Below, piece by piece: positions 4,027 to 13,853 of a stretch of 21,603 nt of DNA. A program made the position numbers and the translations under genes. This stretch comes from Chitinophagaceae bacterium (lineage in GTDB: Bacteria > Bacteroidota > Bacteroidia > Chitinophagales > Chitinophagaceae), in NCBI GenBank assembly GCA_025455205.1, contig JALOMZ010000003.1, positions 1-21,603 of the forward strand, written 5' to 3'. Under the pieces are notes generated by a model, which ran no database searches, was not told where the DNA came from, and saw nothing but the letters and a program-made list of their open reading frames with translations. How positions within the stretch are numbered: position 1 is the stretch's first letter; every line of letters begins with the position of its first letter.

Positions 4027-4614
4027 TTAGCGTATCTCCGATAAATTGATATCTGCAACCTCAAGATAGCTTGTGACAGGATAAATGCCCTGTTCTCCTG
4101 TAGCATAGAACTTCGCTGAACTGTGAGCATAATCAAGCGGCCCAAAGCAAAGGGCCCGATCATAGCGGCAAGGATTCATGTGATAGTAGTCCAGTTTTTG
4201 CAGAATGAAATATTCGGATTCGCATGACTTCCAGTCGAATGAAAGCTCCCAAACGTTATGGTTCTTGTTGCGCAGCCTTCTGCCAGGTTCCACCTCTTCG
4301 GACAACTTGGCCAACAGATGCTGCTCATTATTTTGCTTCAAACGGTCAATGAAAGCATACGCCATGAAACGCTTTCCGTTCCCAATGATGGTATTAATGG
4401 ACTGGCCAACACTTCGAAACCCAATCATACAGTGCACATGATTAGGCATTATCACATAACCAATAATATAATGACCATTGAACTTTAGTCGATCGAACCA
4501 ATTGTATACAATGTCATAGCCGTCAATTACTTCAATAAGTGGAATCCAGCGGTAACAAGTAAACGTAATAGAGAATATTCCCTCTGAATAAGGAATGGAG
4601 GTTCGTGTGGGCAT
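4027..4614 (-). CDS. REP-associated tyrosine transposase (RAYT, Y1/IS200-like)
   Basis: A 195-residue single-strand DNA transposase of the Y1 HUH class. RAYT enzymes recognise and cut REP palindromes in single-stranded DNA and are usually domesticated single-copy genes. The metal-binding HUH-type motif appears as MPNHVHCMI (His59 and His61). The catalytic tyrosine lies in LDYYHMNPCR; alignment with the family YIHNNP motif points to Tyr143. I chose the ATG at 4614 because family homology starts here (a beta strand GIFSITFTCYRW follows) and because an upstream in-frame extension to 4734 would translate straight through palindrome C. The gene is AT-richer than its neighbours, consistent with horizontal spread. 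Palindromes sit on both sides, the standard REP/RAYT arrangement. The length is normal for the group and the frame is intact, so it may be active. Confidence 0.85.
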   Translation of the reverse strand: MPTRTSIPYSEGIFSITFTCYRWIPLIEVIDGYDIVYNWFDRLKFNGHYIIGYVIMPNHVHCMIGFRSVGQSINTIIGNGKRFMAYAFIDRLKQNNEQHLLAKLSEEVEPGRRLRNKNHNVWELSFDWKSCESEYFILQKLDYYHMNPCRYDRALCFGPLDYAHSSAKFYATGEQGIYPVTSYLEVADINLSEIR

Positions 4615-4645
4615 GGCTCCAAAACAGCAATTTGATTGATCATAC

Positions 4646-4671
4646 GCAACGTCCCCGCCGGGAGACGTTGC
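4646..4671. repeat. REP-like palindromic element C
   Basis: A perfect 8-bp outer stem pairs GCAACGTC (4646-4653) with GACGTTGC (4664-4671), and an inner CCCGCCGGG can extend the hairpin. It lies 31 bases upstream of the transposase start, mirroring element B downstream. Confidence 0.75.
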
Positions 4672-4766
4672 TAGGAATCCAATAGATGCTGCAGCTACTT
4701 TCACCCATAAGCCCCGGCATTTGAATAGGTTCACACCTTAACTTGTGCCACCAAACTTCTGAATTC

Positions 4767-5790: not shown

Positions 5791-6969
5791 ATGAACAGTG
5801 ATACGGTAGCCCCACCAGCCCTGCAATATATCCAGGATGCCGCCAGCCTGCAGGCCTGCATAGCTACCCTGCAGGCAGCTCCGGCCTTTGCCTTTGACCT
5901 GGAATTCGACCGCGACCGCTACACCTATGGCTTCGACCTCTGCCTGATGCAGATAGCCACGCCTGCCACCTGCTTCCTGATCGACCCCATGAGTGGCCTG
6001 GATCTGCAGCCCCTGTTCCGCGTGTTTGAAAACCCGGCCATCCGCAAGCTGGTGCATTGCCCCGGCGAAGACCTGCGCCTGCTGCATTCGCTGCATTGCT
6101 TCCCCACCAACCTGGCAGACACGGAAGTGTATGCCAAACTGCTCAACTACGAACAAACCTCGCTGAGCAATATGCTCATGCTGCACTGCGGCATCGCCAT
6201 CGATAAGAAACTGCAAACCAGCAACTGGGGCAAACGCCCCCTCACCACCGCCCAGCTGGAATACGCCGCCGCCGATGTGATCTACCTGTTTGGGCTGGAA
6301 GCCAAACTCCAGGACCTGGTGATGGCCAAAGGCCTGATGCCCTGGGTGGAAGAAGAGCTGGCCCATTTGAACGCCGCCCGCTATTCGCTGGAACCCAAAA
6401 CCAATTTCCTCAAGAAGAACGACCTGCAGTTCATGAGCCCCTACGACCAGTTCGTACTCAACGAACTGTTCAAATGGCGCGACCAGCTGGCCCGCAAAAA
6501 GAATAAGCCGGCACACCAGATCATGTCAGAAGAAGTGCTGCGCCAGATTGGATATGGCCGGCTGCCCATTGAGCAGCTGCCGTTGCAGCAGGGCATCCAT
6601 CCATTGCTCAAAACACCCGGCATGGTCCGGCAGCTGGAACGCGATTTCGACCGCTTTCATGCAGAAGCCCGGCAGGCCCGGCTCAGCCGCAAACGTGCCG
6701 GACAGGGACTCACCCCGGAAGAACGCAACACCTTTGAACAAGACAGGCTCCGGATGGAGCAGGCCAAGAAGCAGGTATTCCAGCCCATCCAGCAATGGCT
6801 GACCTCAGAGCTGGGCGAGCATACCATGCGGTTCATACTGAGCGGTACGCTGATCAATGATATTCTCCGCGGCGACACAAAGATCGGAGCGCTGCAACCT
6901 CCCTACCGGCAGCAATTGATATTGCGTGCAGCTGGCGCCCTGGGCCTCGATATCAGCCCATGGCATTAA
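5791..6969 (+). CDS. rnd: Ribonuclease D
   Basis: A 392-residue 3'-to-5' exoribonuclease of the DEDDy class, which trims the 3' ends of tRNA precursors and other small RNAs in the cytoplasm. All four acidic residues and the tyrosine are visible: Asp36 and Glu38 in FAFDLEFDRDRY, Asp94 in HCPGEDLRLL, and Tyr158 with Asp162 in LEYAAADVIYL. The WGKRPLTTAQLEYAA stretch is characteristic of RNase D. The C-terminal half (about 215-300) carries an HRDC-like helical domain that begins near LNELFKWRDQLARKKNKP. The length matches the family. It ends 24 bases from the convergent Kelch-like gene, with no evident terminator between them. Confidence 0.92.
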   Translation: MNSDTVAPPALQYIQDAASLQACIATLQAAPAFAFDLEFDRDRYTYGFDLCLMQIATPATCFLIDPMSGLDLQPLFRVFENPAIRKLVHCPGEDLRLLHSLHCFPTNLADTEVYAKLLNYEQTSLSNMLMLHCGIAIDKKLQTSNWGKRPLTTAQLEYAAADVIYLFGLEAKLQDLVMAKGLMPWVEEELAHLNAARYSLEPKTNFLKKNDLQFMSPYDQFVLNELFKWRDQLARKKNKPAHQIMSEEVLRQIGYGRLPIEQLPLQQGIHPLLKTPGMVRQLERDFDRFHAEARQARLSRKRAGQGLTPEERNTFEQDRLRMEQAKKQVFQPIQQWLTSELGEHTMRFILSGTLINDILRGDTKIGALQPPYRQQLILRAAGALGLDISPWH

Positions 6970-6993
6970 TCACCTCATTCGGGCTGCTGCCCG

Positions 6994-8334
6994 TCAGGGG
7001 TCCTTGCGGGTAATCACCACCTTCCAGATCCTGGCAGCCGCTTCGCTGGGACTGGCAAATGGCGGGCTGAAAAAAACATTGGGTGCACTGCTTTCAATGC
7101 CGCCCACTATATATCCGGCCAATACATGATTCCGATCCAGGCGCTGCAGGTCCAATATGCCATCCGTCCGCCAGAACGCACCCGGCGCCGGAATGAATTC
7201 GGCGGAAGCGCCCAGGTACCCGGGCATTTCCAAAGGCAGGTACCACTCACGGTAACCGTCCTTTGCCTGTGCTATCACGCTCACCGTTTTCACAAAAGGA
7301 ACCTGGTCGTCGGTCAGAAGCTGCCCGCTGCCGGATACGGGGTGGCGGGCAATGCCCCCAAAGAAAACAGCGTAGCTGGTGCGCAGCCCGGCATGGTACA
7401 GCGGCAGGCTGGCCGTATGATAATGGTTGAGGCGCTGTTCAAAATCAGGCACCTGCTTAAATCCATCTTGATCTATTTGAACCAGCGAGGTGAAGGGCAG
7501 GTCGCGGTCGGGCTGAAACACCCCGGAATACATGGTCCACCGGGCAGACCCGTCGGCTGCCACCTGTGGCAGCAGGTTATAATCCCGCCGGTGCAGCACC
7601 GCTTCATCCTTCCACTCCTGCAACATCCTCAGCACAAAGCTGCCGGCACTATCTGCCAGCCGGAAGCGGCGGATGGCATTGGTGTATTGCTGCATAAAGC
7701 CGGGGCCATGATTGGGCCCGTGGGGGTTATATCGGCCGTCGAACCGCTGCCCGCCGGCCAGGTAGAATACGCCATCCATGTACCCGAGCCGGCCACCGGT
7801 GACGGCCATATCCTCATGAGGCAGCCGCACAAAGGCCGGAGCAATGGGAGCGCCGGCTTCCAACAGGCGCACCAGCAGGGGCAGCTTAACCACCACCAAT
7901 GCAGCATGCGTGCGATGGTCGCGGGCAATTTCACTGTATCCATAGCCGCCGGTGAGGATGAGCAAGCTGTCGAGCTGGAAGAACTGCATGTTGGTGCTCT
8001 GTAACTGTTCGGCCAGGGCGGGGTCCAGACCCTCCGGTTCTGCCTGCCGGGTGCTGCCGCTGGCGGGATCCACCAGCCATATGCGTTGGTTGCGCCCCTC
8101 GGCCGCAAAAGAAGCAAAGGGTTGGCGCTTGTGCAATCCATCGGTACGGCCACCCATGAGCACCCACCGCCCCTGCCATACGGCAAAGGCATATGACTGC
8201 AGACCAGGCAGGCCATCTATAGTCACCGGTTCAAGCCTGATGCTAAAAGGAAAATCTGCGGGTGCAGCACCCGGATCCTGGGCCCGGGTACAGAGGGCGG
8301 AGAGCAGCAGCAATACGGTAAGCAAACGTGGCAT
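6994..8334 (-). CDS. Secreted Kelch-like beta-propeller protein
   Basis: A 446-residue exported protein. Residues 1-18 form a signal peptide (MPRLLTVLLLLSALCTRA). The remainder contains spaced Gly-Gly motifs typical of Kelch blades: WVLMGGRTDG, LLILTGGYGY, VFYLAGGQRFDGRY, AVFFGGIAR and GYIVGGIES. These suggest five or more blades of a beta-propeller. No catalytic motif, lipobox or C-terminal type IX sorting domain is seen. The function is unknown; such proteins bind carbohydrates or proteins, or are uncharacterised sugar-acid-related propellers. I preferred the ATG at 8334 over an upstream TTG at 8358 because it starts the signal peptide directly. A promoter of its own can be seen in the 60-base gap behind the kinase gene. 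Confidence 0.75.
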   Translation of the reverse strand: MPRLLTVLLLLSALCTRAQDPGAAPADFPFSIRLEPVTIDGLPGLQSYAFAVWQGRWVLMGGRTDGLHKRQPFASFAAEGRNQRIWLVDPASGSTRQAEPEGLDPALAEQLQSTNMQFFQLDSLLILTGGYGYSEIARDHRTHAALVVVKLPLLVRLLEAGAPIAPAFVRLPHEDMAVTGGRLGYMDGVFYLAGGQRFDGRYNPHGPNHGPGFMQQYTNAIRRFRLADSAGSFVLRMLQEWKDEAVLHRRDYNLLPQVAADGSARWTMYSGVFQPDRDLPFTSLVQIDQDGFKQVPDFEQRLNHYHTASLPLYHAGLRTSYAVFFGGIARHPVSGSGQLLTDDQVPFVKTVSVIAQAKDGYREWYLPLEMPGYLGASAEFIPAPGAFWRTDGILDLQRLDRNHVLAGYIVGGIESSAPNVFFSPPFASPSEAAARIWKVVITRKDP

Positions 8335-8806: not shown

Positions 8807-9871
8807 TTACTGCATGTTGGCCATCTTCTCGGCATTCTCTGCCAGCTGCAGGGCTTCAATGAATTCCTCTATCTCGCCGTTCATGACGGCATCGAGGTTG
8901 TATACGGTGAGCCCTATGCGATGATCTGTTACGCGACCCTGGGGATAGTTGTAGGTACGGATCTTGGCGCTGCGATCGCCGGTGCTTACCAGGGTCTTGC
9001 GCTGGCGGGCAATCTCCTCTTCCTGCTTGCGCACCTGCTCTTCATAGAGTTTCGTGCGCATCATGTTCATGGCTTTTTCGCGGTTGCCCAGCTGCGTACG
9101 TTCGGTTTGGCACATCACCACGGTTCCTGTAGGGATGTGGGTGAGTATTACCTTGGTTTCTACCTTGTTCACGTTCTGGCCACCTGCGCCGCCGCTGCGC
9201 GCCGTTTCCATTTTCACATCTGCCTCCCGCAGCTCAAAATCCACTTCCTCGGCTTCGGGCATCACGGCCACGGTGGCCGCAGAGGTATGCACCCGGCCCT
9301 GCGTTTCGGTGGCCGGCACCCGTTGTACCCGGTGCACGCCGCTTTCGAACTTGAGGGTGCCGTATACATCTTCACCTTCCACTTCCACCACCACTTCCTT
9401 GTAGCCGCCCACGGTGCCCTCACTTTCACTCACCACAGAAGCCTTCCATCCTTTCTTGCCGCAATAGCGCAGGTACATATCGAGCAGGTCGCCGGCAAAC
9501 AGGCTGGCTTCGTCGCCACCGGTACCGGCGCGTATTTCCAGGATGGCGTTCTTATCGTCCTGCGGGTCCTTGGGAATCAGCAGTTTCTTCAGGATGGCTT
9601 CCAGTTCCTCGCTTTGGGCGGTAAGGCCGGGCATTTCTTCCTTGGCCAGTTCGCGCATTTCGGGATCATCGCCATTCAGCAGTTCCCGGCTGAACTCCAG
9701 GTCGGCCAGCACCTTCTTGTAAGCCTCAAAGGGTTGCACAATCTTTTCCAGCTGTCGGTATTCCTTGCTCAGGCGCCCAAACTCCCGCTGGTTACCCACC
9801 ACTTCGGGGTTGGTGAGGGCCACGCCTACCTGCTCAAATCGCGCCTTGATGGCTTCCAGCTTGTCGATCAT
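8807..9871 (-). CDS. prfA: Peptide chain release factor 1
   Basis: A 354-residue class I release factor that reads UAA and UAG stop codons and triggers peptide release on the ribosome. The catalytic GGQ is at residues 230-232 ([16 protein letters not shown]); the glutamine is the methylated catalytic residue. The stop-codon-reading PxT motif appears as PAT at 186-188 ([10 protein letters not shown]), which marks RF1 rather than RF2. The [18 protein letters not shown] segment is also typical. The ATG at 9871 ([15 protein letters not shown]) is the normal family start; the open frame continues upstream without homology. No hemK/prmC methylase gene is adjacent. The gene is divergent from the jetA-like gene, and a TACCTTCG element sits upstream. 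Confidence 0.96.
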
Positions 9872-9890
9872 ATCATAACCTTTGGGGCCG

Positions 9891-9898
9891 CGAAGGTA
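9891..9898 (-). promoter_or_regulatory. Probable -7 element of prfA (TACCTTCG)
   Basis: On the minus strand TACCTTCG differs by one base from TAnnTTTG and lies 19 bases before the prfA ATG. A similar TTCG variant precedes serC in this window. Confidence 0.35.
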
Positions 9899-10035
9899 AT
9901 TGATGCCGGGGATAGCTGTTAGCCCCACTGCAGCCCTGTCTCCGGCAGCCCCCTGTACACCTGGCGTTTCCCCCAATTATCCGGAACACGGGGAAGCCCG
10001 AACCATCGCAGCCAACAAGCTACCCCCCAAAACCT

Positions 10036-10042
10036 TATTTTG
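10036..10042 (+). promoter_or_regulatory. Probable -7 element of the jetA-like gene (TATTTTG)
   Basis: TATTTTG lies nine bases before the ATG at 10052. It is one base shorter than the consensus, like the element seen before the Kelch-like gene. The very short leader fits the pattern at gatB. Confidence 0.35.
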
Positions 10043-10051
10043 CACCCCGCC

Positions 10052-11542
10052 ATGCAGGAAGCCTTCTTTCAGTACCGCACCCTCAGCCTATTCCTGCAGC
10101 AGTCGCTCAGCATGCGCCTGCTGCGGAGCGGTCATGCCGCCATGAGCATATCCTTCCTGTATAAGATGTTCAGGCAGCAGAACCTCATTGCCATACCCAT
10201 GGCCGAACTCACCCAGAAACTGGCCGATTATATGGCCAACCTGGGCTTCCTGGAAGAAGGGGAAGAACAGCATTCCCTCAGCTATGTGAGCAGCGACTAT
10301 TTTGAACGCGCCGACACCTACCTTAAACGATGGGCAGATGAAGACAACCGGTTTGTTACCATTAACGTGGACGAAAAGACCCACGAGCCCTATGTAATGC
10401 TCACGCGGCACACGGAAAAAGTGTTCCAGGCCCTGGAGCTGCTGCGCGACAAGGATTTTGTGGGCGCAGAAAGCAAGCTGCTCGACCTGTTCCACAAGGT
10501 GGAGGAACTGGTGCAGCGCACCAATGAAGATCCCGAGCAACGCATCAGGGAGCTGCAGGAAAAGAAGAAGCAGATCGAGGAAGAGATAAAGCAGATCCGC
10601 CAGACCGGCGAAGTGATGGTATTCGAGCCCTGGCAGGTGAAAAGCCGCTGGTCAGAGATAGAGCGCCTGAGCCATGAGCTGAGCGGCGACTTCCGCGAAG
10701 TGGAAGAGAACTTCAAGGAGATATACAAAACCATCAGCCACCGCCATGCCGATGCCAGCCTCAGCAAGGGACAACTGCTGCGCCTCACCTTCGACGCCCT
10801 GGAGGAATTGCGGAGCAACGACCAGGGCAAGAGCTTTTATGCCTTCTGGGAATTCCTGATGGACGAAGAGAAACAGCAGCAGTTCACCGCCATGCTGCAG
10901 CAGGTATACGACCTGCTGGACCAGAGCGGCGTGAACTATGAAAACCGCCAGCTGCTGCAGCTGAAATACATGCTGCATGCCGCCGGCATCAAGGTGCTGG
11001 AAACCAACCAGCTGCTGGGCTACAAGCTGAGCCGCATTGTAGTGGAAAAGGAACGGGGTAACCGGCGCAAGACCCGCGACCTGGTGAACCAGATCCTGCA
11101 ACAGGCCCTGCAGCAGGCGGAGCGGGCCGACAAAAAAGAACTGGTGGTGTTTGTAGACGACCGGCCGCAGATCAGCATGCCCATGGAACGCCGGCATGGC
11201 GACCAGCCCCTGGAAAACCAGTTTGGCACTGCCCCCAACAGCGCTGCCCTGAGCATTGACCAACTCACCGACCTGCACAAATTGATGGACGATGGCAGCA
11301 TCGACAAGCAGGAGCTGCAAAACAACATTAAGGCCATGCTGCAAAAGCAGAAGCAGGTGACCCTGAAGCAGGTAGTGGAACACCATGGCTGCCGCCGCGG
11401 ACTGGCAGAGGTGCTGGCCTATGTGAGCCTGGCCGTGCAGCTGCGCAGCGCCAGCATACAGGCTGATATGGCAGAAGACATCCTGTTTGATGCGGAGCGG
11501 CAGAAATACCTGCAGGTGCCGCAGATCATTTTCAGTTCATAA
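10052..11542 (+). CDS. jetA: JetA-like protein (DUF3375, MksF-type kleisin of Wadjet/MksBEF)
   Basis: A 496-residue protein that I recognise as DUF3375. In type I Wadjet anti-plasmid systems this is JetA, the kleisin that bridges SMC heads. Supporting segments are: the N-terminal LRSGHAAMSISFLYKMFRQQ (25-44), matching the family pattern of a helix after 'LLR..HA'; FVGAESKLLDLFHKVEELV (136-154); a charged coiled coil (about 160-185); SGDFREVEENFKEIYK (211-226); and NDQGKSFYAFWEFLM (256-270). The last two are the most characteristic DUF3375 stretches. The C-terminal half is helical and would bind the JetC head. The ATG at 10052 was chosen; an in-frame TTG 12 bases upstream is unlikely. The gene is intact. 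The JetB-like gene follows after 100 bases, which is unusual because jetA and jetB normally abut or overlap. No SMC or nuclease partner is present. The family call is strong; the system call is weakened by the missing partners. Confidence 0.82.
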   Translation: MQEAFFQYRTLSLFLQQSLSMRLLRSGHAAMSISFLYKMFRQQNLIAIPMAELTQKLADYMANLGFLEEGEEQHSLSYVSSDYFERADTYLKRWADEDNRFVTINVDEKTHEPYVMLTRHTEKVFQALELLRDKDFVGAESKLLDLFHKVEELVQRTNEDPEQRIRELQEKKKQIEEEIKQIRQTGEVMVFEPWQVKSRWSEIERLSHELSGDFREVEENFKEIYKTISHRHADASLSKGQLLRLTFDALEELRSNDQGKSFYAFWEFLMDEEKQQQFTAMLQQVYDLLDQSGVNYENRQLLQLKYMLHAAGIKVLETNQLLGYKLSRIVVEKERGNRRKTRDLVNQILQQALQQAERADKKELVVFVDDRPQISMPMERRHGDQPLENQFGTAPNSAALSIDQLTDLHKLMDDGSIDKQELQNNIKAMLQKQKQVTLKQVVEHHGCRRGLAEVLAYVSLAVQLRSASIQADMAEDILFDAERQKYLQVPQIIFSS

Positions 11543-11563
11543 ACCGGCATCAAAAACGCGAAC

Positions 11564-11625
11564 TGGAATTTGGAATTTGAATTTTTTGGATTTTGGAATT
11601 TGGCATTTGGAATTTGGAATTTCAA
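11564..11625. repeat. GGAATTT low-complexity array between jetA and jetB
   Basis: About seven degenerate copies of (T)GGAATTT occur in a row, with variants GAATTTTTT, GGATTTT and GGCATTT. This word array is a common intergenic filler in Bacteroidota. Here it occupies most of the 100 bases separating the jetA- and jetB-like genes. It is followed by the short leader CAACTTAACCTGTTCATACC before the jetB ATG. Confidence 0.8.
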
Positions 11626-11642
11626 CTTAACCTGTTCATACC

Positions 11643-12281
11643 ATGAGTAGCTTATTCACCGAATCGCACCAGGCCGGCACGGCCTATATGCCGCATGTGG
11701 CCCGCGTGCAGCCCTGGGCCCGTTGCGCCGCACGCCTGCTTCGGGGCCCCCTGTTCGATGATGAGGAAGAGCTGTGGCACAAGCTGGTGATCTACAAAAC
11801 AGAATTGATCATGTGGTTTGAACAGATTGCCGTAGAGCTGATCATCGACCAGCGTGATGGTTATGCCTACCTGCGGCAGCTGGAGCTTGACGACAAGGGC
11901 AACACCGTGGGCCTGGTACAACGCCGGCCTTTGAGCTACGAGGTCACCCTGCTGTGTGTGATCCTGCGCAAGATGCTCGATGAATTTGAGCTGAACGACA
12001 CCAGCAGCCGCAATCTCTATATCACCCGCAAATTGCTGCGGGTGGAGCTGGAGACCTTTTTCAAGGAAAAGGCCAACCGCATGAAGCTGATCCGGGAGCT
12101 CAACCGGTACATCGAGGAAGTGGCCGAACTGGGATACCTGAAAAAGCTGAAGAACGAAAGCAGCGTAAGCGAAGACGATCGCTTTGAAGTGCGCCGCATC
12201 CTCAAAGCCCGCTTTGATGAAGATACCCTGCAGTATTTCCTGATGCAGATACGCCCCGAAGGCGAAACCGGACAGGCCTAG
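11643..12281 (+). CDS. jetB: JetB-like protein (DUF4194, MksE-type)
   Basis: A 212-residue protein matching DUF4194, the JetB/MksE winged-helix accessory subunit that binds the kleisin in Wadjet and MksBEF condensins. Supporting segments are: ARCAARLLRGPLFDDEEELW (26-45), corresponding to the family 'LL.G.l...de.lW' opening; VELIIDQRDGYAYLRQLE (64-81); VQRRPLSYEVTLLCVILRKML (92-112), the most characteristic stretch; a central wHTH region about 120-165; and the C-terminal RFEVRRILKARFDEDTL (180-196). The frame is intact and the length is normal. It starts at the ATG at 11643, with no evident Shine-Dalgarno site. In complete systems jetC starts at or before the jetB stop. Here the next 430 bases hold no long reading frame on this strand, only the tandem hairpin repeats. 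Confidence 0.8.
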   Translation: MSSLFTESHQAGTAYMPHVARVQPWARCAARLLRGPLFDDEEELWHKLVIYKTELIMWFEQIAVELIIDQRDGYAYLRQLELDDKGNTVGLVQRRPLSYEVTLLCVILRKMLDEFELNDTSSRNLYITRKLLRVELETFFKEKANRMKLIRELNRYIEEVAELGYLKKLKNESSVSEDDRFEVRRILKARFDEDTLQYFLMQIRPEGETGQA

Positions 12282-12336
12282 AGCCGCGCCGAACGCAGGC
12301 TCCCACATAAATGGAATTTGTGCAAATGGTGTGTTA

Positions 12337-12712
12337 TAACCACCAAGGCACGAAGCAGGCACGAAGAACGCGATGAAAGACGGGACATCGCGGACTCCCT
12401 TGGTGCACTTGGTGGCCTTGGTGGGAAACGCCTGATTTCCCACTAAGCGCACGGAGAAACACAAAGGATCACAATGGGTAACCACCACGGCAAAAAGAAC
12501 ACGATCCAGGACGGGACATCGCGGACAACCTTGGTGCACTTAGTGGCCTTTGTGGGAACCACTTGATTTCCCACTAAGCGCACGGAGAAACACAAAGGAT
12601 TACATCGGGTAACCACCAAGCTACAAAGAACACGATGTAAGACGGGACATCGCGGGCTTACTTGGTGCACTTGGTGGCCTTGGTGGGAAACGCCTGTTTT
12701 CCCACCAGGTGC
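12337..12712. repeat. Three tandem copies of a hairpin-forming repeat
   Basis: Three copies of the same unit begin with TAACCACCA at 12337, 12479 and 12610 (periods 142 and 131; the first has about 11 extra bases). Each unit holds GACGGGACATCGCGG and then CTTGGTGCACTTGGTGGCC-type sequence ending GGTGGGAA. Copies 1 and 2 also share a link, TTTCCCACTAAGCGCACGGAG and AAACACAAAGGAT. The left part (ACCACCAAGGCACGAAG) is roughly the reverse complement of the right part (CTTGGTGCACTTGGTGG), so each unit can fold as a long imperfect hairpin; copy 3 has an inner CGATG...CATCG stem. The array fills the space between jetB and fabH. It codes for nothing recognisable. Confidence 0.85.
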
Positions 12713-12714
12713 CT

Positions 12715-13764
12715 TTACCACCGCATCAGGGCGCTGGCCCAGGTGAAGCCGCTGCCAAATGCGGCCAGGCAAACCAGGTCGCCTTTTTGAATGCGGCCCT
12801 CCTGCCAGGCTTCGCACAGGGCGATGGGCACACTGGCGGCCGTGGTATTGCCGTACTTCTGGATATTATTATGCACCTGGTCATCGCGCAGCTTCAGCTT
12901 CTGCTGTACAAACTGGCTGATGCGCAGATTGGCCTGATGTGGTATGAGCATCTTCAAGTCCTGCGGCGTGAGGCCATTGGCCTGCAGGGCTTCCATGATC
13001 ACTTCCGGGAATTTCACCACAGCGGTTTTGAATACGGCGGGCCCATCCATATAGGGAAAGATCTGGCCATCGTCAATCATGGCATGGCTGAAGAACATCT
13101 GCGCTATTTCCGCCTCGTCGAAGCTGGCATATTTTTCTTCCTTCCAGTGGTTGGCATGGGTGCCGGGGTTGTACATGGCCAGTATCTCCGCTTCATGTCC
13201 ATCGCTGTGCAGATGGGTGCTCAGGATGCCGCGACCGGGCTCTTCGCAGGCCTGCAGCACCACGGCGCCGGCGCCATCGCCGAATATCACGGTAACATTG
13301 CGGCCCCGGGTGGTGAAGTCGAGGCCAAAGGAATGCTTCTCGCTGCCCACCACCAGTATGTTTTTATACATGCCCGTTTTGATGAACTGGTCGGCCACGC
13401 TGAGGGCATACACAAAGCCGCTGCACTGGTTGCGTACATCCAGGGCACCTATCTGCCGCATACCCATGGCCCGCTGCAGCAATACGCCGCAGCCTGGAAA
13501 ATAGTAGTCGGGACACAGGGTGGCAAATACAATAAAATCAATATCCTGTGGCGTGAGGCCTGCTCTTTCAATGGCAATCTTCGCTGCCTCAATGCCCATA
13601 GTGGTGGTGGTTTCTTCGGTACGATGGGCGTAGCGGCGCTCGCGGATGCCGGTACGCTCCTGGATCCACTCGTCGGTGGTGTCCATGTATTTCATCAGGT
13701 CGTGGTTGGTCACCACGCGCTCGGGCACATACATCCCGATGCCGGCAATAATGGAAGATGGCAT
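12715..13764 (-). CDS. fabH: 3-oxoacyl-[acyl-carrier-protein] synthase III
   Basis: A 349-residue thiolase-fold enzyme that starts type II fatty acid synthesis by condensing an acyl-CoA with malonyl-ACP in the cytoplasm. The Cys-His-Asn triad is visible: Cys114 in LDVRNQCSGFVYAL, His276 in LIPHQANLRI, and Asn306 in KYGNTTAASVP. The N-terminal DEWIQERTGIRERR and the FGDGAGAVVL stretch are also typical. The protein is somewhat longer than the usual 310-330 residues, with an insertion around 195-235. It could therefore be a FabH paralogue with a different acyl preference rather than the housekeeping copy. No other fatty acid genes lie nearby. The ATG at 13764 starts the family homology (IIAGIGMYVPERVV) and has a TACTTTTG element upstream. 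The gene ends directly at the hairpin repeat array. Confidence 0.92.
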   Translation of the reverse strand: MPSSIIAGIGMYVPERVVTNHDLMKYMDTTDEWIQERTGIRERRYAHRTEETTTTMGIEAAKIAIERAGLTPQDIDFIVFATLCPDYYFPGCGVLLQRAMGMRQIGALDVRNQCSGFVYALSVADQFIKTGMYKNILVVGSEKHSFGLDFTTRGRNVTVIFGDGAGAVVLQACEEPGRGILSTHLHSDGHEAEILAMYNPGTHANHWKEEKYASFDEAEIAQMFFSHAMIDDGQIFPYMDGPAVFKTAVVKFPEVIMEALQANGLTPQDLKMLIPHQANLRISQFVQQKLKLRDDQVHNNIQKYGNTTAASVPIALCEAWQEGRIQKGDLVCLAAFGSGFTWASALMRW

Positions 13765-13793
13765 AGCAACTGTATTGAATATGGAAATGTACG

Positions 13794-13801
13794 CAAAAGT
13801 A
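13794..13801 (-). promoter_or_regulatory. -7 element of fabH (TACTTTTG)
   Basis: On the minus strand TACTTTTG is a perfect TAnnTTTG match 29 bases before the fabH ATG. No good -33 TTTG is seen at the expected distance. Confidence 0.45.
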
Positions 13802-13853
13802 AGCAGCCGCGCAGGCCTGGCACCTGCCTCATGCCATCCATGCCGCAACCTGT

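Follow-up and report, generated by a model that had tools for sequence, protein, structure and literature searches.

An intact jetA-jetB pair without an adjacent jetC in a Chitinophagaceae genome, and the split jet loci of its relatives

The genes jetA and jetB, coding for subunits of type I Wadjet and MksBEF systems, lie side by side in the window, that is, in the whole stretch of DNA analysed here (21603 b). The window is an entire contig (G000:C74) of a metagenome-assembled genome (MAG) of a Chitinophagaceae bacterium. This genome, G000, comprises 2361974 b in 397 contigs and is 61.67% complete. According to the sections of PMC10586767 that describe the system, JetA, JetB and JetC are its kleisin, KITE and SMC subunits and JetD is a nuclease. 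The same sections state that all four Jet proteins are needed against plasmids in Bacillus subtilis, and that Pseudomonas aeruginosa MksBEF, a system that has probably lost JetD, acts in chromosome organisation. In PMC10123090, a conserved mksFEBG gene order is seen across the organisms depicted. The window was compared with ten genomes of the genus (G000-G009, including G000 itself), with 394 genomes of the family, scanned for JetA and JetC, and with named genomes, where 94 loci were confirmed and 80 retained.

The jetA-jetB pair

The first gene, jetA (or mksF; 10052..11542, + strand), encodes a kleisin subunit of 496 residues counted from its ATG; an upstream TTG at 10040 opens a 500-residue frame. 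The protein matches DUF3375 (PF11855) from position 3 to 474 of the 474 positions of the Pfam profile (292.6 bits, E 7.5e-87) as well as the PADLOC model JetA1 (E 8.5e-131). A profile built from six JetA sequences finds solved JetA chains, with 8q72_E at the top (E 1.3e-10). The second gene, jetB (or mksE; 11643..12281, + strand), encodes a KITE subunit of 212 residues. It matches the Pfam families DUF4194 (PF13835; 111.8 bits, E 3.6e-32, positions 2-165 of 165) and MksE (PF21980; 32.6 bits for a cut-off of 27, E 1.2e-7), and the PADLOC model JetB1 (E 5.9e-50). Neither protein reaches the cut-off of any NCBIfam family, and JetB used as a single sequence against solved chains gave no match at E <= 0.1. 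Sequence alignments show an N-terminal extension of about 15 residues in JetB that is common to the genus and to two named-genome loci, L118 and L119. In the spacer between the two genes (11543..11642), short repeats of the TGGAATT type occupy positions 11564-11622 (period 7, 8.1 copies).

Both frames are open, and the order, jetA then jetB on the same strand, is that of type I Wadjet and MksBEF. The window therefore carries an intact, full-length pair of JetA/MksF and JetB/MksE. The initial annotation had recognised two intact genes of the DUF3375 and DUF4194 families in this order and orientation, and the profile searches bear it out.

A motif of JetB, IFDR, that contacts JetD is described in a section of PMC10586767. 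This word was not seen in the aligned JetB N-termini. The nearest JetD-bearing and JetD-less neighbours are alike in this region, and no conclusion was drawn.

The jetB-fabH gap and the flanking genes

In type I Wadjet and MksBEF, jetC adjoins jetB; it does not in the window. Instead, jetB is followed by a gap (12282-12714) in which a 131-b intergenic repeat is present in 2.6 tandem copies (12364..12705), at the place where jetC lies in other genomes. The copies agree at 85% and the longest exact repeat within the gap is 37 b. In the rest of G000, similarity to the gap is confined to pieces of 22-69 b. Beyond it, on the opposite strand, is fabH, coding for ketoacyl-ACP synthase III as identified by family search (12715..13848, - strand, with its stop at 12715) and thus convergent with jetB. 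The view that jetB is followed only by tandem repeats and then by fabH, with no jetC or jetD, agrees with the open reading frames (ORFs), the repeat analysis and tblastn. Queries for JetC (three), JetD (two), Cas9 (two), Cas1 (one) and a 131-residue ORF found in relatives (orf131, see below) were compared with the whole window and gave nothing at E <= 0.1, so that decayed copies of jetC, jetD, orf131, cas9 or cas1 were rejected. No Rfam match was found in the window.

On the left side, prfA, coding for peptide chain release factor 1 with its PCRF and RF-1 domains (8810..9976, - strand), is divergent from jetA. prfA and fabH are core chromosomal genes at genus-level identity: among the best matches listed for the other genus genomes with an orthologue-like hit, prfA is 85-95% and fabH 75-89% identical. 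Both adjoin jetAB in the window, but some 156 kb separate them in G008 and some 131 kb in G005. prfA has other neighbours in the relatives in which it was placed. On the fabH side, the window has the gene order of G008, G005, G001 and G002, and a different gene follows fabH in G008, G005 and G001. Two flanking segments, the 171 b before jetA and the 479 b that begin close to the jetB end and reach fabH, found no match among 18 genus loci. Because the conserved block consists of jetA-jetB alone, the layout reads as a relocation of the pair.

Two observations were made further to the left on the contig. GatB (1366-2706, 446 residues) lacks about 28 residues of the solved chain 3h0l_B between its residues 171 and 200, near position 1860, which could reflect either a genuine in-frame deletion or a misassembly at this point. 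An ORF at 4027-4734 (- strand) has a weak Y1_Tnp match (E 0.0051, under the cut-off) and may be a REP-associated transposase.

Arrangements of the jet genes in the genus

Within the genus, JetA is matched in four of the ten genomes (G000, G001, G005 and G008) and JetC in five (G001, G002, G004, G005 and G008). JetD is matched in four (G002, G005, G008 and, over a 112-residue stretch, G007) and has no match in G004. G001 is 97%, G002 79% and G004 67% complete, and G008 is a single contig. The window jetA and jetB match their genus counterparts at 76-81% DNA identity; at the protein level, G005 JetA is 79% identical to the window JetA.

Three kinds of arrangement are seen. In G008, jetA, jetB, orf131, jetC and jetD are together on one strand, JetC and JetD being confirmed by PADLOC and Pfam. 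In G005, the same stretch is broken between orf131 and jetC, where about 11.9 kb replace about 86 b. The edges of the break are closely similar to G008 (98.7% for the jetC-side piece and 97.9% for the orf131 piece), and the insert carries cas9, cas1 and an array of about 68 copies with a 77-b period. The jetB-jetC junction was therefore opened at least once in the genus. In G001, jetAB and jetC occupy two different contig ends, jetC being divergent from cas9 and cas1. The partly recovered genomes add two further loci. In G004, jetC is divergent from a cas9 truncated by the contig end and is followed by rnpA, with no jetD before rnpA; JetA has no match in this 67% complete genome. G002 holds the end of jetC plus a jetD. 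jetAB and jetC were never seen together in G000, G001 and G004.

Several features of these loci are noted in their own right. The G005 locus (L043 13720-18871, L014 2493-7684) shows a type II CRISPR-Cas system nested in a Wadjet operon, i.e. one defence system inside another. The cas1 genes beside jetC in G001 (L046) and G005 (L043) look near-identical in the residues compared. Cas9 of G005 matches that of G001 over a short stretch only (39% over residues 3-79), and judging from these sequences a swap of Cas9 may have taken place at a single site. G008 has a second site (G008:C1:1124937-1129290) whose Cas9 shares 85% identity with that of G001; the first 50 residues form a separate match, with one internal TGA. 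In G002 (L037, G002:C75), the JetC end is 90% identical to G008 and the adjacent JetD just 47%, which suggests that JetD may have been exchanged.

Co-occurrence of JetA and JetC in the family and in named genomes

In the family sample, JetA was found in 81 genomes, JetC in 82 and both in 79. JetA without JetC is limited to G000 and G220, the latter with a 178-residue match at the end of a 3235-b contig. JetC without JetA occurs in G002, G004 and G247. With completeness of 90% or more and contamination of 5% or less required, JetC is present in 77 of the 78 genomes that have JetA. JetC is on the contig and strand of JetA for 85 of 92 JetA matches. The JetA-JetC gap measures 568-2412 b in 84 of these 85 (median 602), the exception being G005 with 13475 b. 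The seven other matches belong to G000, G001, G114, G032, G220 and, as two pieces, G239.

Among the named-genome loci, JetC accompanies JetA at 74 of 80. Three of the others (L116, L140 and L184) end at most 0.9 kb after jetA, and a fourth (L117) is the G005 locus. The remaining two, L155 (7347-9382, a Cytophagaceae MAG) and L178 (9153-11663, Anaerolineales), show jetA-jetB with no JetC match within 10 kb downstream. Where 1.5 kb or more follow the final JetC hit (66 JetC loci), JetD is matched at 53 and unmatched at 13. L118 and L119, the nearest named relatives outside the genus, belong to these 13.

Some unusual jet loci were also met in the family sample. A JetA-like gene preceded by a small gene, with no JetB seen, is present in L022 (G032:C225, 154-2077) and L112 (G114:C8, 7180-8877). 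The small gene is RadC-like in G032 and similar by eye in G114; a transposase-like ORF adjoins the JetA-like gene in G114, and the contig ends there in G032. Two opposite-strand ORFs are located between jetA and jetB in L113 (G140, 6434-8027). Finally, a JetC match with one internal TAA (L034, G032:C294:874-4230) has a JetA end piece next to it (17-274), which may mark a jet operon in decay.

Selection on JetA and JetB

Between G000 and G008, G005 or G001, nonsynonymous divergence (dN) is 0.12-0.13 and synonymous divergence (dS) 1.7-2.2 for JetA, as compared with 0.08-0.09 and 1.7-2.5 for fabH in the same pairs. The dN/dS ratios are rough because dS is near saturation. Relative-rate comparisons with G071 as outgroup gave similar numbers of unique changes in JetA of the window and of G008, G005 and G001 (24:23, 24:25 and 22:24, respectively), and 2:5, 2:5 and 1:4 in JetB. 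JetA is under purifying selection and is not accelerated. For conservation, 89 loci were supplied and the alignments contained 90 rows for JetA and 85 for JetB; L116 and L117 were omitted as duplicates of G001 and G005, and five JetB were too short or not found. The window keeps the consensus at all columns conserved at 95% or more (35 of 35 in JetA and 10 of 10 in JetB).

A split operon and its alternatives

The initial annotation had left four explanations side by side: a split system with jetC and jetD elsewhere, loss of jetCD by recombination between repeats, an assembly collapsed across repeats, and an SMC-independent role of JetAB. The weights given to them below are our judgement and were not computed. 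We consider it likely that jetAB is one half of a type I Wadjet/MksBEF operon split by rearrangement, the jetC of which lies in the unrecovered part of the genome. The split system is the best supported of the four because contiguous, CRISPR-Cas-split and contig-separated arrangements coexist in the genus; as to G000 itself, we infer that jetC is elsewhere, that JetAB is expressed and that the complex forms. From the roles of JetA, JetB and JetC given in sections of PMC10586767 and from the mksFEBG order conserved in the organisms shown in PMC10123090, JetAB is expected to need JetC from another locus. The finding is real and its layout unusual, with probably ordinary biology behind it.

The order of events can be tentatively proposed. 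The starting point would be an uninterrupted operon of the kind present in G071, L118, L119 and the majority of the family. A CRISPR-Cas system would then have inserted between jetB and jetC within the genus, a step seen for G005 only. Finally, a rearrangement in the gap would have carried jetAB to the prfA-fabH site. This order supposes that, in the lineage of the window, the insertion came before the relocation. JetA and JetB would still be made and would serve a JetC (MksB) SMC motor encoded at another locus. Two JetC would form a ring via their ATPase heads, with JetA as the bridge between the heads and JetB bound to JetA, and the assembled complex would extrude DNA loops. Circular plasmids would be cut if JetD is encoded, and the complex would be a chromosome-organising MksBEF if it is not. 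Relatives occur both with and without JetD, so that the complete set may or may not include it.

The locus can be compared with known systems. It resembles type I Wadjet (JetABCD/MksBEFG/EptABCD) in the family models, order and orientation of JetA and JetB, and the nearest same-genus relatives, G008 and G005, also carry JetC and JetD; unlike type I Wadjet, the window locus is without jetC and jetD, and the recovered 62% of the genome yielded neither. With nuclease-free MksBEF condensins, such as that of P. aeruginosa described in PMC10586767, it shares a kleisin and a KITE subunit of the same families. However, in MksBEF-type loci without a JetD match, including L118 and L119, jetC is beside jetB. 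As in the CRISPR-Cas-split G005 locus, jetAB is apart from jetCD, but in G005 jetCD is 13.5 kb off on the same contig with orf131 and cas genes in between, none of which is present in the window. The Mks set of Borrelia burgdorferi is also reduced to some subunits. According to the relevant section of PMC10406323, MksB is present there without MksE and MksF and still affects chromosome contacts; the window shows the reverse, kleisin and KITE being kept without the SMC.

Several results weigh against a split operon with a distant jetC. A six-frame search of the recovered part of G000 with G008 queries gave no candidate for JetC or JetD, and the SbcC-type Walker B family (PF13558) has no match there, for a control positive in 12 of 14 genomes. 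As about 38% of the genome is missing, the absence of jetC is weak evidence. The whole-genome search suggested in the initial annotation thus covers the recovered part of the genome. A point in favour of the split is likewise weak: rnpA, which is within about 0.9-6.3 kb of jetC or jetD in G004, G005 and G008, has no match in recovered G000 either, but it is also unmatched in the 97% complete G001, and rnpA sequences diverge within the genus (39-64% to the query in several genomes). G003, G006 and G009, which are well sampled, match neither JetA nor JetC; hence, the jet system can be lost. The intergenic stretch on the jetC side of G004 does not align with G005 or G001, and a single shared CRISPR insertion is therefore unproven. 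At less stringent thresholds, the window falls somewhat below the medians of the other loci: JetA keeps 47 of 51 columns conserved at 90% (0.92, for a median of 0.98 in the others) and 65 of 71 at 80% (median 0.944), and JetB keeps 13 of 14 (median 1.0) and 21 of 24 (median 0.913). Finally, JetA and JetB show no sign of decay, a state in which a very recent orphaning would look alike.

The main rival is such a recent loss. Recombination at the repeats or close to them would have deleted jetC and jetD, and JetAB would be an idle remnant, still intact for want of time to decay. The repeats are exactly at the expected jetC site, JetC and JetD are missing from what was recovered of G000, and the system is patchy, as seen with the three genomes devoid of JetA and JetC and with G004, 67% complete, which has no JetD match. 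However, no trace of jetC, jetD or orf131 is left in the window, neither JetA nor JetB is accelerated, and the unrecovered 38% of the genome lessens the value of the absence. Moreover, both flanks of jetAB differ from those of relatives, which points to a relocated pair rather than to a simple downstream deletion. We therefore regard a recent loss as rather unlikely.

An assembly error appears quite improbable. It would be a false join or a collapse of the contig at the 131-b repeats, by which jetCD was lost or jetAB became fused to a fabH region unrelated to it. The MAG is in 397 contigs, repeats are present at the junction, and the residues missing from GatB on the same contig may reflect a local misassembly. 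Nevertheless, the tandem copies are only 85% alike, with no exact repeat beyond 37 b, the gap resembles only the 22-69 b pieces outside the contig, and genes on both sides are at genus-level identity. The least probable explanation is that JetAB, and perhaps the L155 and L178 pairs too, works without its own SMC, after switching to a partner such as the housekeeping Smc or by acting alone: those two pairs and the converse incomplete set of B. burgdorferi (section of PMC10406323 on MksB) are in its favour, but JetC accompanies JetA in 79 of 81 family genomes, L155 and L178 were covered over 10 kb downstream only when the G005 neighbour is 13.5 kb away, and no positive evidence supports a new partner.

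Implications

Wadjet and Mks genes are regarded as a single operon, and tools that detect defence systems depend on their adjacency. Our search of the open-licence PMC literature brought up no report of jetAB being orphaned or split, nor of a Wadjet operon that contains CRISPR-Cas. The genus studied here shows an operon opened by a CRISPR-Cas9 insertion and, in the window, jetAB at an entirely different site. If jetC were truly absent from G000, a new explanation would have to be sought for a kleisin-KITE pair on its own. Should jetC be confirmed at another locus, functional systems would escape rules based on adjacency, and the genus could serve as a natural test of whether an SMC complex tolerates separate expression of the SMC motor and the kleisin-KITE part.

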